Translations under genes and position numbers: made by a program
Notes under the pieces: generated by a model
Seen by the model: only the letters and a program-made list of their open reading frames with translations
Databases searched by the model: none
Told to the model about the DNA's origin: nothing
Shown: in pieces, positions 768-32,540 of the stretch
Position numbering within the stretch: position 1 is the first letter of the stretch
How the letters are laid out: each line of letters opens with the position of its first letter
Assembly (NCBI GenBank): GCA_001438205.1
Contig: LICG01000016.1
Span: forward strand, 1 to 32,540
DNA from: Cryomorphaceae bacterium BACL7 MAG-120322-bin74
GTDB taxonomy: Bacteria > Bacteroidota > Bacteroidia > Flavobacteriales > Schleiferiaceae
DNA length: 32,540 nt
Direction: 5' to 3'

Positions 768-799
768 GAGACGCCCCGGAAACGGGGCGTCTCTTTTTT
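768..799 (+). terminator. Intrinsic terminator of the rhodopsin gene
   Basis: Perfect 11-bp GC-rich stem (768-778 with 783-793) closed by a GAAA tetraloop and followed by six T (794-799). The T-run overlaps the stop codon of the convergent lipoprotein gene. On the minus strand the hairpin is followed by an A-rich, not T-rich, stretch, so it should work only for the rhodopsin transcript. Confidence 0.92.
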
Positions 800-1919
800 A
801 TGGCCCTAGGCGATAAAGAAACCTTCTGTCACGGCATGCGATGCCATTAGGTAAGACAGCGACATAGGGCTCTAGAGCTGTCGGCATACTGTGGCTTTTA
901 CGCCAGCCACCGTGGCTTACTTGAACTAATCCTCGGTCCCAGCTGAGGTACAGTCCCAGGGGTCCTGGGCGCAATCGATCTATCCAGGATATGCCTGTCA
1001 ATTGAAACTGTTGAAGGATCTGACCGCTTAGGGGGTCAATCCAAGCCCCTTCTCCCATATGGTTCAGCATATATAGTCCCTCAGGGAGGAGTGCCCACCC
1101 TGGAACGGCCCAAGCGAAGGGGAGAGGGAGCTTCCAAAGTAGGCTGTCCCCATTCAGTTGAAAGGCATAGAGATTGTGACGGCCCGCAGCGAACAACAAA
1201 CCATTCCATTGTATGAGCGGAAGTCCCGTCCCGTCATCTTCTGCATATGGCTTGACCTGAAGGCTATCTGCCGTTTGCAGCAATAAAGAGGAGCGACCTG
1301 TTTGTGTTGGTGCATCCCAAAGGCGAAGATTTGCTGCCCATCCATTCACCCATGCGGAAGTACCATCAATCAAGGCATATTCCTGCGCGCCCAATAAGTA
1401 AGAATACAAGGTGTCCCATTGCGGAAGAGGGGCGTCTTGTGTATTCCATCTCAAGAGCCAAACATGGTCTACCGAATAGGTAGGCAAGTAGACATACTGT
1501 TGAAAAACATATCCCAGACGCGTGGTCCAAGTCCCATGACTTAGTCCGTATGGAAGAACTTCCCCTTGTCCAGTGTAGGGGTCAATTCGGATGGCTTCTT
1601 TTTCATGAAACAGCCACAACGCATCTTGGGTAACCGCTATTTCTTCCAGAACCCAACTGTCATTTAACCATCCCGAGGGGAGGGTATACGACCAGAATAA
1701 TTGACCGGTTTCCCCATGCCGAAGACCGATGGCGTTACTGTCTACCTGCACCCAAAGGTGCTTTTCCCATGCATAGGGGCCAAAACCAATGCAGGGCAAG
1801 CTATCTGGCTTAAGCGGCTGCTGCCAAATAAGAGGGGCACTATCTGCCAAGGGGTTGGTTAATGGCTGACATGCCCAAATGCACAAAAGAGAGGCTGGAA
1901 GGATGACCAAACTTTTCAT
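798..1919 (-). CDS. Putative lipoprotein with PQQ-like beta-propeller repeats
   Basis: Protein of 373 residues whose function I do not recognise. The N-terminus (MKSLVILPASLLCIWAC) is a short hydrophobic signal ending in a Cys followed by Q-P, so C17 is the likely lipidation site. The body is rich in Trp, Gly and Leu, with repeated blade-like units in which a variable/location statement is followed by a GxL(Y/F) turn (for example GLYMLNHMGEGAWIDPLSGQ). This resembles outer-membrane PQQ/quinoprotein-type beta-propellers, but no catalytic motif is visible. Its ATG overlaps the stop of the upstream hydrolase gene by four bases, so it is translationally coupled as the last gene of a three-gene operon. 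The propeller assignment is inference from repeat rhythm. Confidence 0.75.
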   Translation of the reverse strand: MKSLVILPASLLCIWACQPLTNPLADSAPLIWQQPLKPDSLPCIGFGPYAWEKHLWVQVDSNAIGLRHGETGQLFWSYTLPSGWLNDSWVLEEIAVTQDALWLFHEKEAIRIDPYTGQGEVLPYGLSHGTWTTRLGYVFQQYVYLPTYSVDHVWLLRWNTQDAPLPQWDTLYSYLLGAQEYALIDGTSAWVNGWAANLRLWDAPTQTGRSSLLLQTADSLQVKPYAEDDGTGLPLIQWNGLLFAAGRHNLYAFQLNGDSLLWKLPLPFAWAVPGWALLPEGLYMLNHMGEGAWIDPLSGQILQQFQLTGISWIDRLRPGPLGLYLSWDRGLVQVSHGGWRKSHSMPTALEPYVAVLPNGIACRDRRFLYRLGP

Positions 1920-3490
1920 CGGATGGCAGTTGCAAAGAAGGGGCCTCCGGGAATCTGACCGTTATAGATGCGCTTTAAAAGTGCCCTTGTGGTGCTTGCA
2001 TTGCGCATTTGTTGATGATTGGTGTTCGGCATGGCAACATGCGCTATTGCTCCAGGCAGACTACCGGCAGATTGTGCAAGGACAACCCCATCATTAGGTT
2101 TCTCGATGACGTACGCTTGCCATCTTTCCCAAACGACGCAAGCGGCATAGGGATCACTCCCAAAGCAATCTGAAGGGGTTTGTACCGCAGTCCAAGAAAA
2201 AGGAGGATCCATATCCCCTCTGCAACGGCACCAAAAGCCATCTTGGTTGAAGGAGAGTTTTCGTGCGCCAATGTAGCCTTTGTAGACATTATTGGCTTGA
2301 TAATACCAGCGATGCGCATCATTTGCCGCTGCGGATTCTTCTAAAGCACGTTGACGCTGCCAGGCGTGGTATAGAGAGGCGACCGGATTGTACCAGGCAT
2401 TGTTTTGAGCAATAAGGTGCGCTTGTGCTCGAGCACTTGCCAGGGCTCCTTGCGCAGCATATTGGGCCATTTGATCTACTGCCCAATCTACCAGGACCTG
2501 GTCTCCATCAAATGAAAAGGGATCCTGCGCCAAGGCAAGGCCGATGGAATCTGTCATGTACATGGAATAGGCTGTACGCCAAAACACGGGCTCTTCTTCT
2601 ACCCCATATGCCTGTATAACCGGAACGGATGGTGCCCGCGCAGAGATGCTTTGTATCCATGGTGATTGTGGTTGAATCTCGGCAACAAGGGGTTTATTAA
2701 AATGGCCCAGAGCAAAGGGAACAAATAGGTCCCCCAATGTCCCACAGGTGAATGAAATAGCTTGCTGTAATATGGGGTCTAGGGCTGGAAACCAGCGTAA
2801 TGGAGGCAAAAATTGGGGCAGCCAAAGCCATGGGCTAGAGAGCACTTCACAGGCTTCCTCTACAAATCCTTCGGCGCCATTACCTCCCCAGCTGCTCAGC
2901 GCGAATGGGGCGTCCGAACCCTCTACGGCGGAACCAAACAAAATCATCCCGCCAAAGGGCCGAGAGAACGTTATGGTGTCTTGGTATAGGCTATCCAAAA
3001 TCAATGCTTCTAGACCCCCCAGTGAATGGGCAATTAACAGGTTGTCTTCGGGAGAAATTCCATGGATTTGTTGGGCTTGCCATGCCGCACTTTGCAGCCC
3101 GGCATCCATGTCTAAAGCTGCATCCAGGAGGCTGCCGTTTTGCGCATAGGTTATAGGGGGGGCATAAACGACTTTCCGTGCAGGAAACTGAAGCGTCCCA
3201 CCATAGGCTGTCCTACTGGCGACGAGTTGCCAATTTTCACTTGAGCCCCCTAATCCATGGATATAAAAGATGGAACGGTCCCCACCTGTATAAGTTTTGG
3301 CTGAAAATACCTGTGACCCAGCCAAGGGCTCAAAAGGACGATTATGTACTTCTGGACCAGCCCCAGATAGGGCAAGGGGAGTAGAAGTACAAGGTTGGGC
3401 ATAGAGCCTGCCCGCAAGGAGGGTAACTAGGATAAAAATGAGCGCGACCGTAAAAAATATGGGTACATTTTGCGTGGAGGGCTTTTGCAT
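1916..3490 (-). CDS. Exported alpha/beta-hydrolase (lipase/esterase-like)
   Basis: Protein of 524 residues. Residues 11-31 form a hydrophobic signal segment ending in LYAQ, so it is probably exported. The hydrolase core shows the oxyanion-hole strand IFYIHGLGGSSENW (HG at 78-79) and the nucleophile elbow AHSLGG with S156. A late His in NTNHQQM fits the catalytic His, following a GAIAHVAMPN strand. These are features of the PGAP1/lipase-type alpha/beta-hydrolases. The long middle and C-terminal part (about residues 250-440), with several Trp and Cys-containing loops, is not recognised. The substrate is unknown; an ester or lipid is likely. The gene starts 9 bases after the stop of the T9SS-protein gene and overlaps the lipoprotein gene by four bases. 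Confidence 0.85.
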   Translation of the reverse strand: MQKPSTQNVPIFFTVALIFILVTLLAGRLYAQPCTSTPLALSGAGPEVHNRPFEPLAGSQVFSAKTYTGGDRSIFYIHGLGGSSENWQLVASRTAYGGTLQFPARKVVYAPPITYAQNGSLLDAALDMDAGLQSAAWQAQQIHGISPEDNLLIAHSLGGLEALILDSLYQDTITFSRPFGGMILFGSAVEGSDAPFALSSWGGNGAEGFVEEACEVLSSPWLWLPQFLPPLRWFPALDPILQQAISFTCGTLGDLFVPFALGHFNKPLVAEIQPQSPWIQSISARAPSVPVIQAYGVEEEPVFWRTAYSMYMTDSIGLALAQDPFSFDGDQVLVDWAVDQMAQYAAQGALASARAQAHLIAQNNAWYNPVASLYHAWQRQRALEESAAANDAHRWYYQANNVYKGYIGARKLSFNQDGFWCRCRGDMDPPFSWTAVQTPSDCFGSDPYAACVVWERWQAYVIEKPNDGVVLAQSAGSLPGAIAHVAMPNTNHQQMRNASTTRALLKRIYNGQIPGGPFFATAIR

Positions 3491-3499
3491 TGGGCAGGG

Positions 3500-4492
3500 T
3501 TAAAGTTGAACAAAGGGTTGTTGCAGTACATAGGGACCAAAAGTTGCTCGGATGGTGTATCGTCCAGGAGGTAAGGGAGGTGATACCCAAGTGGGTAGGG
3601 CCAGTGGGGGAGACAATTCCCATGCAACACGGCCGTTTATGTCAATCCATTCAAGTTTCTGAGGGCGAATGTCCTGAGGGGGTTGAAGCGCTAGTTGTAC
3701 GGGTTCCATCTGTCTTGGATTGGGCGATATGACCAGCTGTATATTGGGACTTTGTTGGCCTGAAGAACCTACGGGGCTTGACCTCAGGTATTGTCTCCAG
3801 ACTTGAGCGCACGTACCATTATGTAAGGTTCTTGGTTGGCTAGAGGTTTCTGCCGCAACATAAAACCCCTCCGCATGGGGGGCAAATTCCCAAATAATGG
3901 AACTGCTATCCGGTCCCCACCATTCCCAACGGGGTGGAGCACTTTGTGCTACCTGTATGAGGCCTTTCCCCGCCTCCCATTGCCATCGGCTAGGGCTCCT
4001 TTCTTGTGCCCCAAGTTGGGCCAATTCTTCTGCAGTGGGGAGCATCTTTGAAACAAAAAGGGTGGGGATTAAGGCGCCTTCATCTGCGTAAAACAAACCA
4101 GGAGGGGCGTCTTGTACAGGGGCTTCTGGCGCAGGGATCCACCTGCCTCGGTGTAGATAAGCTGCCCCATGTGGGGTCCATCGCAGCCCTTCCAATGGAG
4201 ACTCCCAGGGGGCTGATGCTTCTGTGTAATACCATTCTACCGTGGGACCTTCACCTGCATCATACCATTGCCGTGAAATAGTGCGTTGTCGAGGGAGTAA
4301 GGACTCTAGCTCGGCTACATGCAGTCCTGCGGTGTCTGCAATTTTTGCCAAACGAAGCACAGAAATCTCCTGTTCTTGACATTGATAGAAATACGGACTT
4401 TGCTGGGCCCATACCTGTGGCATAGGAGAAAGGGCCCACCCACTCATCCCGAGTAAGAAGACCTTCCATGATAAAAGAGCGTGTGGTTGCAT
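3500..4492 (-). CDS. Secreted protein with type IX (T9SS) C-terminal sorting domain
   Basis: About 330 residues from the chosen ATG at 4492. An upstream in-frame start at 4510 would put MREFGP before the signal peptide, so the later Met (MQPHALLSWKVFLLGM) is preferred. The signal peptide probably ends at VWAQQ. The central part has Trp-rich, propeller- or wrapper-like segments (RWTPHGAAYLHRGRW, RWQWEAGKGL, RWEWWGPDSSS) with no family I recognise. The last 75 residues (ISPNP..., then KLEWIDINGRVAWE, then LPPGRYTIRA) are a type A T9SS sorting domain, so the mature protein should cross the outer membrane and be surface-anchored or released. It is the first gene of the operon with the hydrolase and the lipoprotein and is divergent from sufS. 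Confidence 0.8.
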   Translation of the reverse strand: MQPHALLSWKVFLLGMSGWALSPMPQVWAQQSPYFYQCQEQEISVLRLAKIADTAGLHVAELESLLPRQRTISRQWYDAGEGPTVEWYYTEASAPWESPLEGLRWTPHGAAYLHRGRWIPAPEAPVQDAPPGLFYADEGALIPTLFVSKMLPTAEELAQLGAQERSPSRWQWEAGKGLIQVAQSAPPRWEWWGPDSSSIIWEFAPHAEGFYVAAETSSQPRTLHNGTCAQVWRQYLRSSPVGSSGQQSPNIQLVISPNPRQMEPVQLALQPPQDIRPQKLEWIDINGRVAWELSPPLALPTWVSPPLPPGRYTIRATFGPYVLQQPFVQL

Positions 4493-4585
4493 GGGGCCAA
4501 ATTCTCGCAATACCCCAAAAGGGAATTGCCATTAAACGCCTGTATCCATTTAAATTTCGGATTTTTGCACTTTAGCATCTCAACT

Positions 4586-26338: not shown

Positions 26339-27739
26339 CTAAAGCCATCGGGTGACCCAGCCAATGATCTTGGCCTTTAATGGGGTGTAAGGGGCCGCGA
26401 TGAGCATGGTTGGGGACCAGCGTCCACGCCGATAGATACTGCGTGCATTTGTAAATTCTCGGAAGCCCCAAATGCCATGTGATTTGCCTATGCCAGAGTT
26501 ATTGACTCCACCAAAAGGCAAACTTGGGTGCATGTAGTGCAGGTAAAAATCATTGATGACCGTCCCCCCAGCGCGGGTAGCCTCAATAACCCCATTGCTC
26601 CAATCTCGGTCGTGGCTCAATAAGTATAACACCAAGGGCCTAGGCTGGCTATTCATGAGGGTTAGGGCATCGGCGGTTTCTACAAAGGTTCGAATGGGAA
26701 GAATAGGCCCAAAAATCTCTTGACAAACCAATTCCAAGCCATCGGGAATATCCCATACCAGCGTGAGAGGGAAATAGCAGGTAGCGCGATCAGGGGCATC
26801 TACCTGCCAAACTGAAGCACCTGCCTCTTTGGCCTCTTTTAGCCAGGCTTCAAGCCGATCCCAATGACGGGGATGTACAATGCGGCAGAAGTCTGGGTTT
26901 TGGCTTGGGGTTTCCCCATAATGTTTTTGTACCCCGCGCTGAAAGCCCTGAATGAATCCATCTAGCTGGTCTTTGCGCACGAGTGCATAATCCGGGGCGA
27001 TGCATACCTGCCCAGCATTGAGCCCTTTTGCCCACGCCACCTTTTTTCCCGCAGCTTCTGCGCCATATTTGGGATGCACCAAAACGGGTGACTTGCCACC
27101 CAATTCTAGGGTGACGGAAGTAAGGTGTGCTGCCGCACCTGCCATGACCTGGCTGCCAATCTTAGGTGAGCCGGTAAAAAAGATGTGGTTCCAGGGATGC
27201 TGTAATATGCCTTTGGCAACTTCCACATCGCCCTCGACCACCGTGACTTCCTCTGCAGGAAAAACATCGGCGATGAGACGTGCTAAAAATGCTGAGGAGG
27301 CTGGAGACAGTTCAGAGGGCTTCAGGGCAACAGAATTCCCTGCAGCCACCGCATATACGAGGGGAACTAAACAGAGATTCACCGGAAAATTCCAAGGGGA
27401 TACAATCAAAACGGATCCCTTTGACTCGTAACGCACCTCCGCCTTCCCAGGAATGAGGGTTAGGGGTAGGCCATGGCGTTCGGGCCGCATCCAACGGCGC
27501 AAGTGCCCCACAACATAGTCAATGCTAGAGGTGACCGGTAAGATTTCATTTAAGTCTGTATCGGGGGCTGCACGGTTAAGGTCAGCCCGGAGGGCTGCAT
27601 GTAGCTCATTACGGCGTTCCACCAGGGCTTTTTTCAATGCGCGAAGTCGCGCAATCCGCTGACCTGCTGTGCGGCGACCTATCACTGGGGCAGATGCCGC
27701 CAAGCGCGAATAAACAGAAGTAAGTTCAGGCGTCGTCAT
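26339..27739 (-). CDS. NAD(P)-dependent aldehyde dehydrogenase, class 3-like
   Basis: Enzyme of 466 residues that oxidises an aldehyde to the acid. Catalytic residues are N117 in SPWNFPVNL, the general base E212 in TLELGGKSP and nucleophile C246 in NAGQVCIAPDYAL. The last is the ALDH3 form of the active-site loop, and the length (about 460, shorter than class 1/2) also fits ALDH3. The C-terminal HYMHPSLPFGGVNNSGIGKSHG and the slightly hydrophobic end recall fatty-aldehyde dehydrogenases. The ATG at 27739 is chosen over an in-frame TTG at 27748. The substrate is unknown, but long-chain or carotenoid-derived aldehydes are possible. It is probably monocistronic: 55 bases separate it from the ABC ATPase gene. 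Confidence 0.93.
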   Translation of the reverse strand: MTTPELTSVYSRLAASAPVIGRRTAGQRIARLRALKKALVERRNELHAALRADLNRAAPDTDLNEILPVTSSIDYVVGHLRRWMRPERHGLPLTLIPGKAEVRYESKGSVLIVSPWNFPVNLCLVPLVYAVAAGNSVALKPSELSPASSAFLARLIADVFPAEEVTVVEGDVEVAKGILQHPWNHIFFTGSPKIGSQVMAGAAAHLTSVTLELGGKSPVLVHPKYGAEAAGKKVAWAKGLNAGQVCIAPDYALVRKDQLDGFIQGFQRGVQKHYGETPSQNPDFCRIVHPRHWDRLEAWLKEAKEAGASVWQVDAPDRATCYFPLTLVWDIPDGLELVCQEIFGPILPIRTFVETADALTLMNSQPRPLVLYLLSHDRDWSNGVIEATRAGGTVINDFYLHYMHPSLPFGGVNNSGIGKSHGIWGFREFTNARSIYRRGRWSPTMLIAAPYTPLKAKIIGWVTRWL

Positions 27740-27794
27740 AAGGCACAATCCATTAACCCATCACCCCGAATGTACGCAGAGAGTTTGCTTTTGC

Positions 27795-28487
27795 CTAGCG
27801 ATTAGGGGTATCGCTTTCAATTTGCCCATCGCGCAAGCGAATAATGCGGTGTGCATGCTGGGCAATTTCTTCTTCATGTGTTACCACGACGAGGGTGTTT
27901 CCTGCCTTGTGGATGTCATCAAACAGACGCATGATTTCTAACGAAGTCGTACTATCAAGATTTCCAGTGGGTTCATCCGCCAGAATCATCGAGGGGGTAT
28001 TGACCAAGGCCCGCGCAATGGCCACACGTTGTCGTTGACCGCCTGAGAGTTGGTTTGGATGGTGGTCCATACGGTCGTCTAGACCAACCTGACCCAACAC
28101 TTCTTCTGCACGCAATGTCCGCTCCTCTTTGCTCTTACCAGCATAGACGAGTGGAAGCGCCACATTTTGCAAGGCAGTTTGACGAGGAATCAGATTGAAA
28201 GTTTGGAAGACAAAACCAATTTCTTTGTTTCGGACGGCGGCGAGGTCATTGTCATCCATGCGACTTACATCGCGTCCTGCAAGCGTATAGCTACCGGCAG
28301 TGGGGGTGTCTAGACAGCCGAGCAGATTCATTAAGGTGGATTTACCACTCCCAGATGGGCCCATCAAAGCGACATATTCTCCTTTTTGGATGTCAAGGTC
28401 AATCCCTTTCAGGACATAGACGGTTTGTGCACCCAATTGAAAATCTCGGGTGATCCCCCGGAGCGAAATAACAGCGTTGGATTCCAT
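27795..28487 (-). CDS. ABC transporter ATPase, LolD/MacB type
   Basis: ATPase of 230 residues with Walker A GPSGSGKS (43-50), Q-loop Q95, signature LSGGQ (147-151), Walker B MILADE and the H-loop His in VVTHEEE. The insertion-free length and the TGNLDS segment are typical of the LolD/MacB/FtsE group, which drives mechanotransmission or extrusion of lipoproteins, peptides or drugs through a separate FtsX-like permease. No permease gene is next to it. It starts six bases after the TonB-receptor stop, as the last gene of the copper-type operon. The permease may be elsewhere, or the gene may be a passenger of the operon. Confidence 0.93.
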
Positions 28488-28493
28488 AGGAGA

Positions 28494-30641
28494 CTAGAGG
28501 ACAATATTAGTGCCAAGGTAGACCATCCTCCCAAAAATGGGCCCCCAAATGCGGGTGGCATCAAAGTTGGATTGGAAGTAGGGATCAGAAGGGAGCAAGG
28601 GACTCCCTGTTTGTGGATCCATAGCACCATCAATAGGATGAGCTTGCCGAATATTGAGGACATTCTCTAGACCGAGATAGAGATCCCCGTGTGCAAAGTC
28701 TTTGCGAATCTGTGCATTTAAAAGCGCAAAGGCAGGGGCATAATCAACCGAAGGCCACGCCCAGGGGTCTATGCCAGGAATGGGCTGTTTGCTATAACGT
28801 TGCAGCGTAGCATCTAGGGTCCAGTCTCCTTTGAATTCGCGACTAAGGTGTGCCATCATGCGGTGTGGTGCCACAAAGGGAACAGAGAGCATGCGTCCAT
28901 AGCCCCCCCCTATTGGATTAGGCATGACATACATCGCCTGTAAATCTTGGAAACGATAGGCTATGCGTAATTCGGTCCGTTTATCCACATGATAAAACAA
29001 ACTGGCCCCCCAGGTGGCAGAAGTCATCACGGGTCTCTCCGATCCAAACTGGGTTTGCGTCGGATATATTGCGCGGACCCCTGGAGTCCAGTAATCATGT
29101 ATAATGGCCTTGCTAAACTGTGTCAAATGTGCATCAGCCTGTAATGAGCCCGTCATATAATTTAGGAGAAAAGACCATTGATAACTGAAGCCAAAATTGC
29201 GGGCTGTTTCGAGGCTCAGTATGTCACCCCCAAGGACTTGACCATATTGAAACCATTCCACGGTGCGCTGGCTGGCAAGGCGCCCCCATTCTTCCAAGAG
29301 AGGAAGGGCCATGCGAAACCCCCGTCCCGCATTAAAACGAAATGTATGCTTTTCGCCAGGCGCCCAACGGAGATGGAACCGAGGAGAAAACTGATGTCCT
29401 GCAATGGAATGAAGATCATACCGAACCCCTCCTACTGCGGTAAACGAAGGGAGAGGCGACCAAGTCCACTCGCTGGATAAACCGACGCCTTGCTCCACCC
29501 ATGGCTGTCCCTGGCCCAACATGGGGTGGGTGATGGAAAGATCATATTGATCGCGTAAAAAAAGAACACTCGACGTCTGAGATAAGGTTCCCCATCCATG
29601 CTGAAAAAGGATTTGAGCAAGTCCGCCATTCTGAGCCCCTCCCCATTGACTATGGAGGGTAGCGGGCAAATCGCTGCCCATAGATCCCTTCATTTGATGG
29701 CTGTACAACTGGAAAATTGTACCTACGGATTGGTTTGGATTATCGGGGTTTACCCATCCCATTTTTGATGTGAAGGCGACGCGCCCTTGTTTCATAGCAG
29801 AAGACCAAAGTGATTCCGTATTTGTTCCAGGGGCAAAAGCACGGGCAATCTGCCCCCCTTCTTTCACATCCTCTAGGGCGTGAAACGTATAGATTCCTTC
29901 CCACCCGTTTTGTCCAAAATATCGCGCGCGGAGCATACCGTTGACCTGATACCCTAAGGGATTATCCATAAAGCCATCGCCATTGATATCGGTCGCTTGC
30001 TGGCGGCCGCTAAAATGCCCCAAGCTGGAAAGCATCCACTTTTTATTTATACGCACCCCGTATGCTTCATTTACTTCAAAGCGTCCTCCTTGGTTCAGGT
30101 AGGCATTTAGTTGAATATCTCCGCGACCCTCCGCTCCAGGGGCTTCTGCTGCTTCAACTAGGTCCTCAGGCTTTAAAAGCTCCACATTGATTTGACCTGT
30201 CATACTTTCAAACCCATTGTTGACCGAACCAATACCTTTGGTGAGCTGGATACTATGCACCCATGATCCCGGAATAAAATTGAGTCCCGAATTGGACAAT
30301 AACCCTCGTACCAATGGGGTCATTTCTACTTGTATCTGGGCGTATTTTCCAGCAAGGCCAAACAGTTGAATTTGCTTTGTTCCCGTTACGGCATCTGTAA
30401 AGGCCACGTCAATCGACGGGTTGGTTTCAAAGCTTTCGGATAAATTGCAGCACGCTGCTTTTCGTAGCTCGGTGCGGGAGATATTGACCTGTAATGTAGA
30501 GGACTTGCTGTTGATAGATAGCCCATTGGCGGCTTCATAAATAACCACCTCTTCGATCTGTAGACGGCTATAAAGGGTGGTATCTACTTGCCCAAATAAA
30601 GTAAAGGGAAATAGCAGGGCAAAATAGCGTAACCGATACAT
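28494..30641 (-). CDS. TonB-dependent outer-membrane receptor, probably for copper or a copper complex
   Basis: Beta-barrel receptor of 715 residues, starting at the ATG MYRLRYFALLFPFTLFGQ (signal peptide). An in-frame TTG four codons earlier overlaps the HMA gene stop and is less likely. The plug domain follows directly (about 30-160: IEEVVIYEAANGLS, RTELRKAACCNLSESFETNPSIDV, IQLFGLAGKYAQIQVE, LTKGIGSVNNGFESMTGQINVEL) with no carboxypeptidase-like N-terminal extension. The CCNLSESF plug motif is, as I remember, common in Bacteroidota receptors next to HMA proteins. The rest alternates strands typical of a 22-strand barrel, and the C-terminus ends FGRMVYLGTNIVL. The substrate is inferred from neighbours only: HMA protein, MbnH-like peroxidase and MbnP-like protein. 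Confidence 0.92.
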   Translation of the reverse strand: MYRLRYFALLFPFTLFGQVDTTLYSRLQIEEVVIYEAANGLSINSKSSTLQVNISRTELRKAACCNLSESFETNPSIDVAFTDAVTGTKQIQLFGLAGKYAQIQVEMTPLVRGLLSNSGLNFIPGSWVHSIQLTKGIGSVNNGFESMTGQINVELLKPEDLVEAAEAPGAEGRGDIQLNAYLNQGGRFEVNEAYGVRINKKWMLSSLGHFSGRQQATDINGDGFMDNPLGYQVNGMLRARYFGQNGWEGIYTFHALEDVKEGGQIARAFAPGTNTESLWSSAMKQGRVAFTSKMGWVNPDNPNQSVGTIFQLYSHQMKGSMGSDLPATLHSQWGGAQNGGLAQILFQHGWGTLSQTSSVLFLRDQYDLSITHPMLGQGQPWVEQGVGLSSEWTWSPLPSFTAVGGVRYDLHSIAGHQFSPRFHLRWAPGEKHTFRFNAGRGFRMALPLLEEWGRLASQRTVEWFQYGQVLGGDILSLETARNFGFSYQWSFLLNYMTGSLQADAHLTQFSKAIIHDYWTPGVRAIYPTQTQFGSERPVMTSATWGASLFYHVDKRTELRIAYRFQDLQAMYVMPNPIGGGYGRMLSVPFVAPHRMMAHLSREFKGDWTLDATLQRYSKQPIPGIDPWAWPSVDYAPAFALLNAQIRKDFAHGDLYLGLENVLNIRQAHPIDGAMDPQTGSPLLPSDPYFQSNFDATRIWGPIFGRMVYLGTNIVL

Positions 30642-30649
30642 TAGGGTAT

Positions 30650-31000
30650 TCAATGATGAGACTTCGTCACATCCTCATTGCGGTACTTGCAGCAGGCGTG
30701 CACCTTGGCGTAATCTTCGTCTTTGGCTTTTACCTGGGGGGTATCATGGCCTACTGCCGCGACCGCTTGGTGGAGCGCAAGTTCTTTCACCTTTTTAGGA
30801 TTGAATACGACATAGGTCTCATGGCTTTCGCGATCCCAATCCGCTGTCCAAACGCCATCGATAGCTAACAGGGCGGTTTCAATGCGCTTTTCACACATGC
30901 CACAAACGCCATCCGTTTGAAAGCGGACTTCCGCTTTTTTTTGCGCCATGGCTATAACAGGAAGAAATAACAAGGCAATTAGGGTCAGTCGCTTTTTCAT
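30650..31000 (-). CDS. Small exported HMA-domain metal-binding protein (metallochaperone)
   Basis: Protein of 116 residues with signal peptide MKKRLTLIALLFLPVIAMAQ and one heavy-metal-associated domain. The metal site is C33-G-M-C36 in TDGVCGMCEKRIE, at the usual loop before helix 1, and the fold continues with TADWDRESHETYVVFNPKKV as in CopZ/MerP. Beyond the domain are a CC pair (C103, C104) and a C-terminal HH, which could bind more metal. It is likely periplasmic and carries Cu(I) or a similar ion from the receptor side. Its start overlaps the stop of the peroxidase gene by four bases, and the receptor ATG follows eight bases after its stop. Confidence 0.93.
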   Translation of the reverse strand: MKKRLTLIALLFLPVIAMAQKKAEVRFQTDGVCGMCEKRIETALLAIDGVWTADWDRESHETYVVFNPKKVKELALHQAVAAVGHDTPQVKAKDEDYAKVHACCKYRNEDVTKSHH

Positions 31001-32091
31001 AGGAAGGGATTTAAGTATAAGGTGTCTGTTTCGATTCGGGTATCCGTCAGGGTATTCAGGAAGGCTACCAAGGCTTGACGTTGCACAAAGGTCAAATTTA
31101 GGCCTTTTGTCCCGGAATGGACTTGGATGAAGCCCACCATGCTTGGGTCTAAATTGGGAGAAGTGGGCTCAACTGCTGCGTTGTAGAATTCGATGACTTG
31201 CTCCAGTGTCTGAAAGCGCCCGTCGTGCATATAAGGGGCCGTGTACGCAAGGTTGCGAAGAGATGGAACTTTAAACTTTCCTTGGTCGGTGGCAAGACCC
31301 GTAACATGCCCCAAGCCAAGGTCTGTTAAGGCCGTATCCAGACCATTGTTCATGAACTTATGGTTTGTAAACAACGCGCCGCCGTGGCAATGGAAGCAAT
31401 CGGCACCGGGCGTTGGGCTATTGGGATTCGACTCGCCATTAAAGAGTTGCATTCCCAAGGCTTCTTCTGCCGTGAGACTTTCTACCCCCGCTTCAAATCG
31501 ATCGAATTTGCTGTCGCCGCCGCTCAGAATCGTGAGCATAAACTGCTCTAAAGCTAGCCCCATGCGTTCTGGGGTCACAACATCATCACCAAATGCAGAG
31601 GTAAAAGCTGCTTGATAACGGGTTTGACGCTGGAGTTTGTCAACCACATGAAGGACGTCCTCTTTCATTTCAATGGGATTGGAAATGGGCTCAAGGGACT
31701 GCTCTCGAAGACTCGGCGATCGGCCATCCCAAAAGAAGACTTGGTGCCACGCTAAATTGTGTAATGGCATGGAATTGCGATCGCCTACAGAGCCATCAAC
31801 GCCGGTGCTGAAAACATTCCCATGATCCGTAAAGCCGAACGAGGGGGAATGGCAAGATCCACAACTTTGTGCACTGTCCAAGGACAATATGGGGTCGTAA
31901 AAGAGTTGTCGGCCAAGAAGAATGCCTTCTACCGTTAAGGGATTGTCCTCTGGCAGATTTGGCTGCGGCATTCCGGGGGGAATAGGCAGAACATAGGGTG
32001 TAGTGATATGGGGTTTGTGGCCCCAGTCATCGCCACAGCTGGACCATAAAATGGCCGCTGAACATGCGAACAGGAGGGACCTTAAACTCAA
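30997..32091 (-). CDS. Di-haem cytochrome c peroxidase family lipoprotein, MbnH/MauG-like
   Basis: Protein of 364 residues of the bacterial di-haem peroxidase/MauG superfamily. The two haem c sites are C77-G-S-C80-H81 and C232-F-H-C235-H236. The second-haem ligand region reads SLRNLAYTAPYMHDGRF, where both a Tyr and a Met are near the ligand position, so ligand type needs alignment. The N-terminus MSLRSLLFACSAAILWSSC looks like a lipoprotein signal with C19 lipidated. The start codon is TTG: it overlaps the TGA of the upstream MbnP-like gene as TTGA, and no ATG occurs before the signal peptide. Next to an MbnP-like gene it most likely plays the MbnH part, oxidising a Trp of its partner to kynurenine. 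A peroxide-detoxifying role is the alternative. Confidence 0.92.
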   Translation of the reverse strand: MSLRSLLFACSAAILWSSCGDDWGHKPHITTPYVLPIPPGMPQPNLPEDNPLTVEGILLGRQLFYDPILSLDSAQSCGSCHSPSFGFTDHGNVFSTGVDGSVGDRNSMPLHNLAWHQVFFWDGRSPSLREQSLEPISNPIEMKEDVLHVVDKLQRQTRYQAAFTSAFGDDVVTPERMGLALEQFMLTILSGGDSKFDRFEAGVESLTAEEALGMQLFNGESNPNSPTPGADCFHCHGGALFTNHKFMNNGLDTALTDLGLGHVTGLATDQGKFKVPSLRNLAYTAPYMHDGRFQTLEQVIEFYNAAVEPTSPNLDPSMVGFIQVHSGTKGLNLTFVQRQALVAFLNTLTDTRIETDTLYLNPFL

Positions 32092-32540
32092 GGCGTTTGT
32101 TTTTCTAAAGAAGAAAAGCGGAAGCTGTTGCGCAAGTTTTCGGCCAACTTATTGGCTAATCCATTGTCAAACGTACTATGCGTAAAATCTCCATCTTCCA
32201 CTGGACTCAAGTCGTGCAGGGCTTTAAACATCCCTTCCAAGTCTAGATCAAGGTTGAGTCGCATGTTGTAGGTAAGATCCAATGATGTCATGATGTGTAT
32301 ATCCATCTTGTTCTCATCCAAAGCAATGTGATAGAGCCAAGGGGCTTCCATCCCCTCTTTTTGATAGTAGCCCTCCGTCGCAGCAAAAATGTATCCACCT
32401 GTCCAGCCCCAATGTAGGTTATTGACGGAAGGATTGAGTGCGTGCGTGCCAGACCAAACGGTGGGGTCACCATGATTGTTCGTGCTATCCAGGCCAATAC
32501 TAAAGGCAAACCCCGTATAGTTGCCTGGTGCAATGACACT
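32088..32540 (-). CDS. MbnP-like copper-binding protein, 5' end cut by the window
   Basis: C-terminal 150 residues of a protein whose N-terminus lies beyond the window. It begins SVIAPGNYTGFAFSIGLDST, then NNHGDPTVWSG, NNLHWGWTGGYIFAATEG and WLYHIALDENKMDI, and closes with a helix-rich DLDLEGMFKALHDL tail. This order matches the MbnP family (copper binder of methanobactin-type operons), including the G-D-P turn and the HW(G)W motif near which the partner MbnH oxidises a Trp to kynurenine. Family members are usually lipoproteins or periplasmic. The stop overlaps the TTG start of the MbnH-like gene. Family assignment is by memory of these motifs and the adjacency of the peroxidase; which Trp is modified cannot be told here. 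Confidence 0.75.
   Translation of the reverse strand, partial: SVIAPGNYTGFAFSIGLDSTNNHGDPTVWSGTHALNPSVNNLHWGWTGGYIFAATEGYYQKEGMEAPWLYHIALDENKMDIHIMTSLDLTYNMRLNLDLDLEGMFKALHDLSPVEDGDFTHSTFDNGLANKLAENLRNSFRFSSLEKQTP

Follow-up and report, generated by a model that had tools for sequence, protein, structure and literature searches.

We propose that the right end of the window carries an envelope copper-acquisition operon, in which an MbnP-MbnH pair heads a Bacteroidota module of an HMA-domain protein and a TonB-dependent receptor and takes the place of the protein family HYC_CC_PP. In this reading, to which we give a probability of just under 0.6, a kynurenine-copper lipoprotein would capture copper, and import across the outer membrane would supply it to periplasmic copper enzymes. 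The gene families, the motifs, the conserved gene order, the lack of a detected HYC_CC_PP gene and the SCO1 neighbour in relatives are all read from sequence.

Gene order at the contig end

The window, meaning the whole stretch of DNA analysed here, is one complete contig (C16 of genome G000) of 32540 bases, from a genome of 1.74 Mb in 77 contigs that is 96.8% complete. At its right end, five minus-strand genes follow one another in the order MbnP, MbnH, HMA protein, receptor and ATPase. The order, strand and spacing are as claimed in a preliminary description of this DNA, with overlaps or gaps of at most 8 bases. The MbnP/MbnH, MbnH/HMA and HMA/receptor junctions each overlap by 4 bases, the last turning into an 8-base gap if the receptor starts at a later ATG, and the receptor and ATPase genes are 6 bases apart. 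Pfam models backed the proposed identities of all five proteins (MbnP, CCP_MauG, HMA, TonB barrel and ABC_tran), with the receptor plug just short of its cut-off (22.5 bits against 23.9).

We observed that every junction is kept in the genus wherever the contigs continue. MbnP of the window's type is followed by MbnH in 17/17 genus loci and MbnH by the HMA gene in 17/17, while HMA precedes the receptor in 20/20 and the receptor precedes the ATPase in 19/19. The count of 20 is made up of 19 labelled loci plus L036, where a 273-base receptor end is present, and includes genome G013 twice; L040 and L043 (genomes G009 and G011) were excluded from the first two counts because their MbnP is of another, GMYWSW type. 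Since the order is kept across the genus loci, the five-gene arrangement is beyond chance. The receptor is present in 21/22 genus genomes and an MbnP in 19/22. A natural loss of MbnP in G006 and G016 was considered and rejected because their contigs end just beyond the HMA gene. Assemblies end within the HMA-MbnH-MbnP stretch or immediately above it in the window (at 32540) and in G006, G013 (C25), G016, G018 (C84) and G021 (C30), and this spot may therefore be hard to assemble or variable.

The ATPase gene (27795-28487, minus strand; ABC_tran 125 bits) encodes a LolD/MacB-type ABC protein that scores 246 bits against the NCBIfam LolD model, below the cut-off of 307.75; two further ATPases of the same genome reach 243 and 225 bits. 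An orthologue, 68-82% identical, occurs in 15/15 sister-genus genomes. Among the 13 of these with the receptor, it lies about 2 kb away in one (G032), at least 70 kb away on the same contig in four and on another contig in eight. The earlier inclusion of the ATPase in the copper path did not hold up, as its orthologues are family-wide and mostly unlinked to the receptor, and we rejected a role as copper importer on the same grounds. It is probably a family-wide gene that is co-located in the genus and a near sister as a bystander. The next gene downstream, after a 46-base gap, encodes an aldehyde dehydrogenase (26339-27748, minus strand; PF00171), which follows the ATPase in 13/19 genus loci and is likewise listed as a bystander.

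Elsewhere in the window, a rhodopsin gene (PF01036, 149 bits) occupies positions 18-737, and three long minus-strand open reading frames of 373, 524 and 336 aa, the third possibly spurious, span 798-4510 and had no Pfam match at 1e-5. None of the 19 window proteins was named MbnA, MbnB or MbnC by Pfam at that threshold. The presumed marine origin of the bacterium is doubtful, one member of the genus being Baikal-G4.

The HMA-receptor module and its link to HYC_CC_PP

The exported HMA-domain protein (30650-31000, minus strand) matches PF00403 at 27 bits (cut-off 24.8) and carries a C33xxC36 and a C103C104 pair, all four Cys being invariant in 12/12 aligned sequences. Its NCBIfam matches, a metal-binding selenoprotein family, MerTP/MerP and CopZ, all fall below cut-off. 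The TonB-dependent receptor (28494-30653, minus strand; PF00593 42.5 bits) bears a AACCNLSESFETNPSID motif in the plug region (C68C69) that is invariant in 9/9 aligned sequences; against solved structures it found no near relative (best E 0.0014). Pfam and the invariant Cys residues thus bear out both identities, an exported CxxC HMA protein and a TonB-dependent receptor.

To place these two genes in a wider context, we surveyed the Bacteroidota. A relative of the receptor is present in 103/395 genomes (E up to 1e-40), about a quarter; one match was taken from each after scoring its two best candidates, so that the figure carries no copy numbers. The sample of 116 loci outside the genus has two sources: a scan of 534 relatives, which kept 80 loci, 76 of them used here, and the 103 receptor-bearing genomes, of which 40 were taken. 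Some loci of the sample are the same contigs (L134/L202, L170/L196). The 76-locus part is biased to receptors with two motifs because the scan used those motifs. HMA adjoins the receptor in 92/116 of these loci and a HYC_CC_PP gene lies within 3 kb of it in 101/116, as found with our own profile, which was built from 74 proteins of the same 116-locus sample; neither gene is present in 7/116. NCBIfam NF047658 confirmed HYC_CC_PP for 6/6 proteins scanned. In the sister genera, 11 receptor loci have a readable flank, with HMA next to the receptor in 11/11 and HYC_CC_PP close by in 9/11; both MbnP and MbnH are absent from these 11. From these frequencies we take the module to be HYC_CC_PP, HMA and receptor, which by sequence is a widespread Bacteroidota operon. 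The neighbourhood survey thus reverses one part of the preliminary description, in which HMA and receptor were additions to MbnP-MbnH: it is MbnP-MbnH that joined a widespread HMA-receptor module, in the genus and in two loci outside it.

The direction of copper flow is deduced, and the receptor sequence names no substrate. This leaves room for copper detoxification or periplasmic buffering, in which MbnP and the HMA protein would sequester Cu(I) and the receptor would import co-regulated other cargo, such as a siderophore or a cofactor. In favour of such a function, metal defence often involves HMA and CxxC proteins. However, membership of the TonB-dependent family marks the receptor as an importer, the HMA gene sits beside it in most loci outside the genus, and the analogous CorA is made at low copper according to the available text of PMC3912023; we therefore regard detoxification as unlikely.

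Returning to HYC_CC_PP, the family model detected it in 0/22 genus genomes, in comparison to 11/15 sister-genus genomes. The model misses some members (that of G026 was found only by our own profile), and within the genus our profile was run on the loci only. Among the 18 HYC_CC_PP genes of the sister genera, 8 have a receptor and 7 an MbnP within 3 kb; these 15/18 compare with 0.15 expected by random placement. Outside the genus, HYC_CC_PP is directly beside MbnP in 5/57 MbnP loci (L060, L070, L083, L088 and L090). This proximity to receptors and to MbnPs ties HYC_CC_PP to both systems. In the genus, as judged from the predicted genes, MbnP-MbnH occupies the place that HYC_CC_PP holds in relatives.

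Two loci outside the genus, L127 and L156, hold all of these genes in the order HYC_CC_PP, MbnP, MbnH, HMA and receptor, and their MbnHs are close to each other. A third, L171 (4119-8968), reads HYC_CC_PP, a 253-aa protein, MbnH, HMA and receptor, with no MbnP. The 253-aa protein matches AhpC/TSA weakly, carries a T9SS sorting tail and is perhaps another substrate. In the results for the 395 genomes, inspected by eye, no MbnP outside the genus came closer than 20 kb to a receptor on its own contig, the nearest being about 23 kb away in G221. The MbnP and MbnH profiles used to label the loci were built outward from the genus and may miss far relatives.

A tree of 65 MbnH rows, built without L113-L116, which duplicate genomes of the genus, and without frames shorter than 300 aa, places the MbnH of the genus with those of sister-group operons that lack HMA-receptor (support 100/98); L127/L156 and L171 branch in other parts of the tree. 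The HMA-adjacent state changes three times on this tree, also when starred branches alone are used, with L048 treated as HMA-adjacent though its contig ends. The three changes may represent a separate joining each time, or a single joining with two losses; we dropped the claim that more than one joining is shown, since one gain and two losses fit as well. Under either history, the association of MbnPH with the module is not confined to the genus.

The genes flanking the module are mostly housekeeping genes among the families listed. In a scan that took every third locus (129 proteins, 39 loci), no copper signature was seen among the 25 commonest of 120 families, and the copper reading therefore rests on MbnPH, HMA and SCO1. 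The metal handled by HMA and receptor might then be another (zinc, nickel, mercury or iron chelates, for example), with MbnPH and SCO1 serving a copper function of their own from the same transcript in one genus. Flanks free of copper bias outside the genus, among the families listed, would fit this, as would the HMA protein matching MerP and CopZ models about equally. We nonetheless consider it quite unlikely, given that two loci outside the genus have MbnPH within the operon, flanked by HYC_CC_PP and HMA, and that 15 of the 18 sister-genus HYC_CC_PP genes neighbour a receptor or an MbnP.

MbnP, MbnH and the SCO1 neighbour

The window holds the 3' part of an MbnP-like copper-protein gene (32088-32540, minus strand; 150 aa), its 5' end lying beyond the contig end at 32540. 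With about half of the profile available, this partial protein scores 62 bits against PF20243 (cut-off 27), a clear family match, and it is the sole MbnP match in its genome. The TIGR04052 equivalog model gives the truncated protein 25.6 bits, below its cut-off of 140. Its 150 residues contain no Cys, and the four-Cys motif of the TIGR04052 criterion is absent from them. Each of 11 full-length genus MbnPs has one Cys, and an early Cys is common to 18/18 full-length MbnP relatives.

A WxW motif, W44-G-W46 of the partial protein (32403-32411, minus strand), is invariant together with His33, His43, His71 and His121 in 19/19 aligned MbnPs of the window's type (LHWGW or LHWDW), namely the window, 16 further genus loci, L080 and L070. 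The first Trp of WxW becomes kynurenine in the MbnP of Methylosinus trichosporium, and we take W44 to be the corresponding residue here. A 2021 PNAS paper reportedly treats MbnP and kynurenine. The residue two before WxW is Leu in the window MbnP; among 69 WxW-bearing rows, repeats included, it is Met in 42 and Leu in 24. If a Met at this position is a copper ligand, the site of the window MbnP differs. A profile of 13 MbnP rows matched PDB entry 7l6g, presumably the MbnP of M. trichosporium, at E 1e-5, and a single full-length genus MbnP (L034) had no match in the PDB. A structure predicted for the L115 MbnP from 6 rows had a mean pLDDT of 51.7, too poor for use. The GMYWSW-type MbnPs of L040 and L043 lack SCO1 alongside. 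In G009, the MbnP of L040 forms a pair with an MbnH that is not followed by HMA and exists besides the HMA-receptor cassette of that genome; in G011, the MbnP of L043 sits at a contig end.

MbnH (30997-32091, minus strand) is a MbnH/MauG-type di-haem enzyme and predicted lipoprotein, identified by CCP_MauG (179 bits), TIGR04039, a match to 6e1c and alignment. TIGR04039 is the best among the models matched at 224.3 bits, under its cut-off of 362.85, and the score against the MauG model is below cut-off as well. The best solved match is 6e1c, 'Di-heme enzyme', with classic peroxidases also among the matches. In 11/11 genus sequences the predicted lipid-attachment residue Cys19 is invariant, as are the Cys and His of the first haem motif CGSCH (31849-31863, minus strand) and the second haem motif CFHCH (31384-31398, minus strand). 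Tyr303 (31183-31185, minus strand), also invariant in 11/11, is aligned to Tyr 294 (by count) of the MauG chain; peroxidase 1iqc has Met there. Trp121, with the same invariance, aligns with the Trp at position 93 of that chain. We take Tyr303 to be at the place of the MauG axial Tyr and Trp121 to be the Trp between the haems. The proposed MbnP and MbnH identities, with two CxxCH motifs in the latter, are thus sustained by PF20243, CCP_MauG and these MauG-type residues. That MbnH is an ordinary di-haem peroxidase for oxidative stress with MbnP as an inert partner is very improbable: scores below the TIGR04039 and MauG cut-offs and the classic peroxidases among its matches would agree with it, but the Tyr in place of Met, 6e1c as the top solved match and the WxW-bearing MbnP ahead of MbnH in every one of the 17 genus loci speak against it.

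In L060, L067, L074, L083, L088, L099 and L100, MbnP is followed by two tandem MbnH paralogues, and the MbnH tree puts the second copies on a branch of their own.

The window ends inside MbnP, and the upstream neighbour was read in relatives. A divergent SCO1/SenC gene stands beside MbnP in 17/17 readable genus loci with the window's MbnP type and also in the sister-genus locus L080; two of these proteins score 78 and 79 bits against PF02630, and the rest were found by a profile made from those two. SCO genes also occur within about 3 kb of MbnP in L063, L094 and L103, from other genera. SCO proteins deliver copper to cytochrome oxidase, with COX2 as the usual SCO1 client. COX2 (CuA domain) was found weakly in 8/22 genus genomes although SCO1 is conserved, and it was not found in the window's genome; it is accordingly a weak candidate for the client, which we set aside. 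Inspection by eye of the stretch between SCO1 and MbnP yielded no motif to put forward. The divergent SCO1 gene of relatives strengthens the copper reading of the preliminary description.

A candidate copper path and its known relatives

In the envelope copper-acquisition reading, MbnH would oxidise the first Trp of the MbnP WxW motif to kynurenine and so create a Cu(I) site. MbnP, as a lipoprotein, would capture copper at the envelope, and the receptor would bring copper, as such or as a chelate, through the outer membrane. In the periplasm, the CxxC of the exported HMA protein would then receive the copper, and the protein would hand it over, in the genus plausibly to SCO1 from the divergent gene. 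Both SCO1 and its clients are on the periplasmic side, so a cytoplasmic importer would not be needed. This chemistry and order of steps, the location of MbnP, copper as the metal and the direction of transport are modelled on CorA/CorB, MbnP/MbnH and CrtA. Of the path of capture, maturation, import and hand-over suggested earlier, MbnP, MbnH, HMA and receptor would remain as a candidate path by the same analogy, and the ATPase falls outside it.

The closest likeness is to the methanotroph MbnP/MbnH (TIGR04052/TIGR04039), where a WxW MbnP lies beside an MbnH-type di-haem enzyme with a TonB receptor near. The window's pair differs in its lack of the four-Cys motif, in its union with HMA and with a different kind of receptor and, in relatives, in the divergent SCO1. 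MbnPH pairs that neighbour MbnT-like TonB transporters and are not part of a methanobactin operon have been on record since 2013 (PMC3621798, available text). CorA/CorB of Methylomicrobium album and MopE/SACCP of Methylococcus similarly place a Cu(I) kynurenine protein beside a di-haem peroxidase, and CorA, with its kynurenine copper site, is copper-repressed and surface-bound (PMC3912023, in part). Unlike the window's operon, this system comes with no mention of a TonB receptor in the available part of PMC3912023, and CorA/MopE has no marked sequence similarity to MbnP in that of PMC3621798. CrtA receptors supply respiratory oxidases with imported copper, and ScoI is encoded in a few of their operons; set beside the window's by operon description, they resemble it in this pairing, but have CruR and PepSY_TM proteins, with HMA unmentioned in the available text (PMC12914433). 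MbnPH near TonB transporters and copper TonB receptors with Sco genes are, as far as these partial texts go, already known (PMC3621798, PMC12914433). The Bacteroidota HYC_CC_PP operons (NF047658) share the HMA-receptor core, and differ from the window's genus in having HYC_CC_PP where it has MbnP-MbnH.

The preliminary description held that this gene order was not known as described. The association of MbnPH with TonB transporters is in print, in the available text of PMC3621798, and this part of the claim fell; the part that stood is that a HYC_CC_PP/HMA/receptor module, its link to MbnPH and the displacement were not found in the literature searched, most subscription papers lying outside it. 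A paper naming the HYC_CC_PP family was not found in the same literature.

More tentatively, and short of an even chance, HYC_CC_PP, HMA and the CC-motif receptor could together be a general, unrecognised Bacteroidota copper-import system, with HYC_CC_PP and MbnP-MbnH as exchangeable copper-capturing front ends. The kynurenine-copper protein would then have displaced a cysteine/histidine protein in the genus, and both would serve together elsewhere. If true, the replacement of HYC_CC_PP by MbnP-MbnH would be the first functional lead for this small exported family.

An explanation of outer-membrane copper import in Bacteroidota was not found in the literature searched. A receptor family with its usual partners and a link to known copper chemistry offers a concrete candidate, open to testing in cultured strains. 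In conclusion, the gene pair at the front of a widespread, unstudied metal-uptake operon suggests how this group may collect copper.
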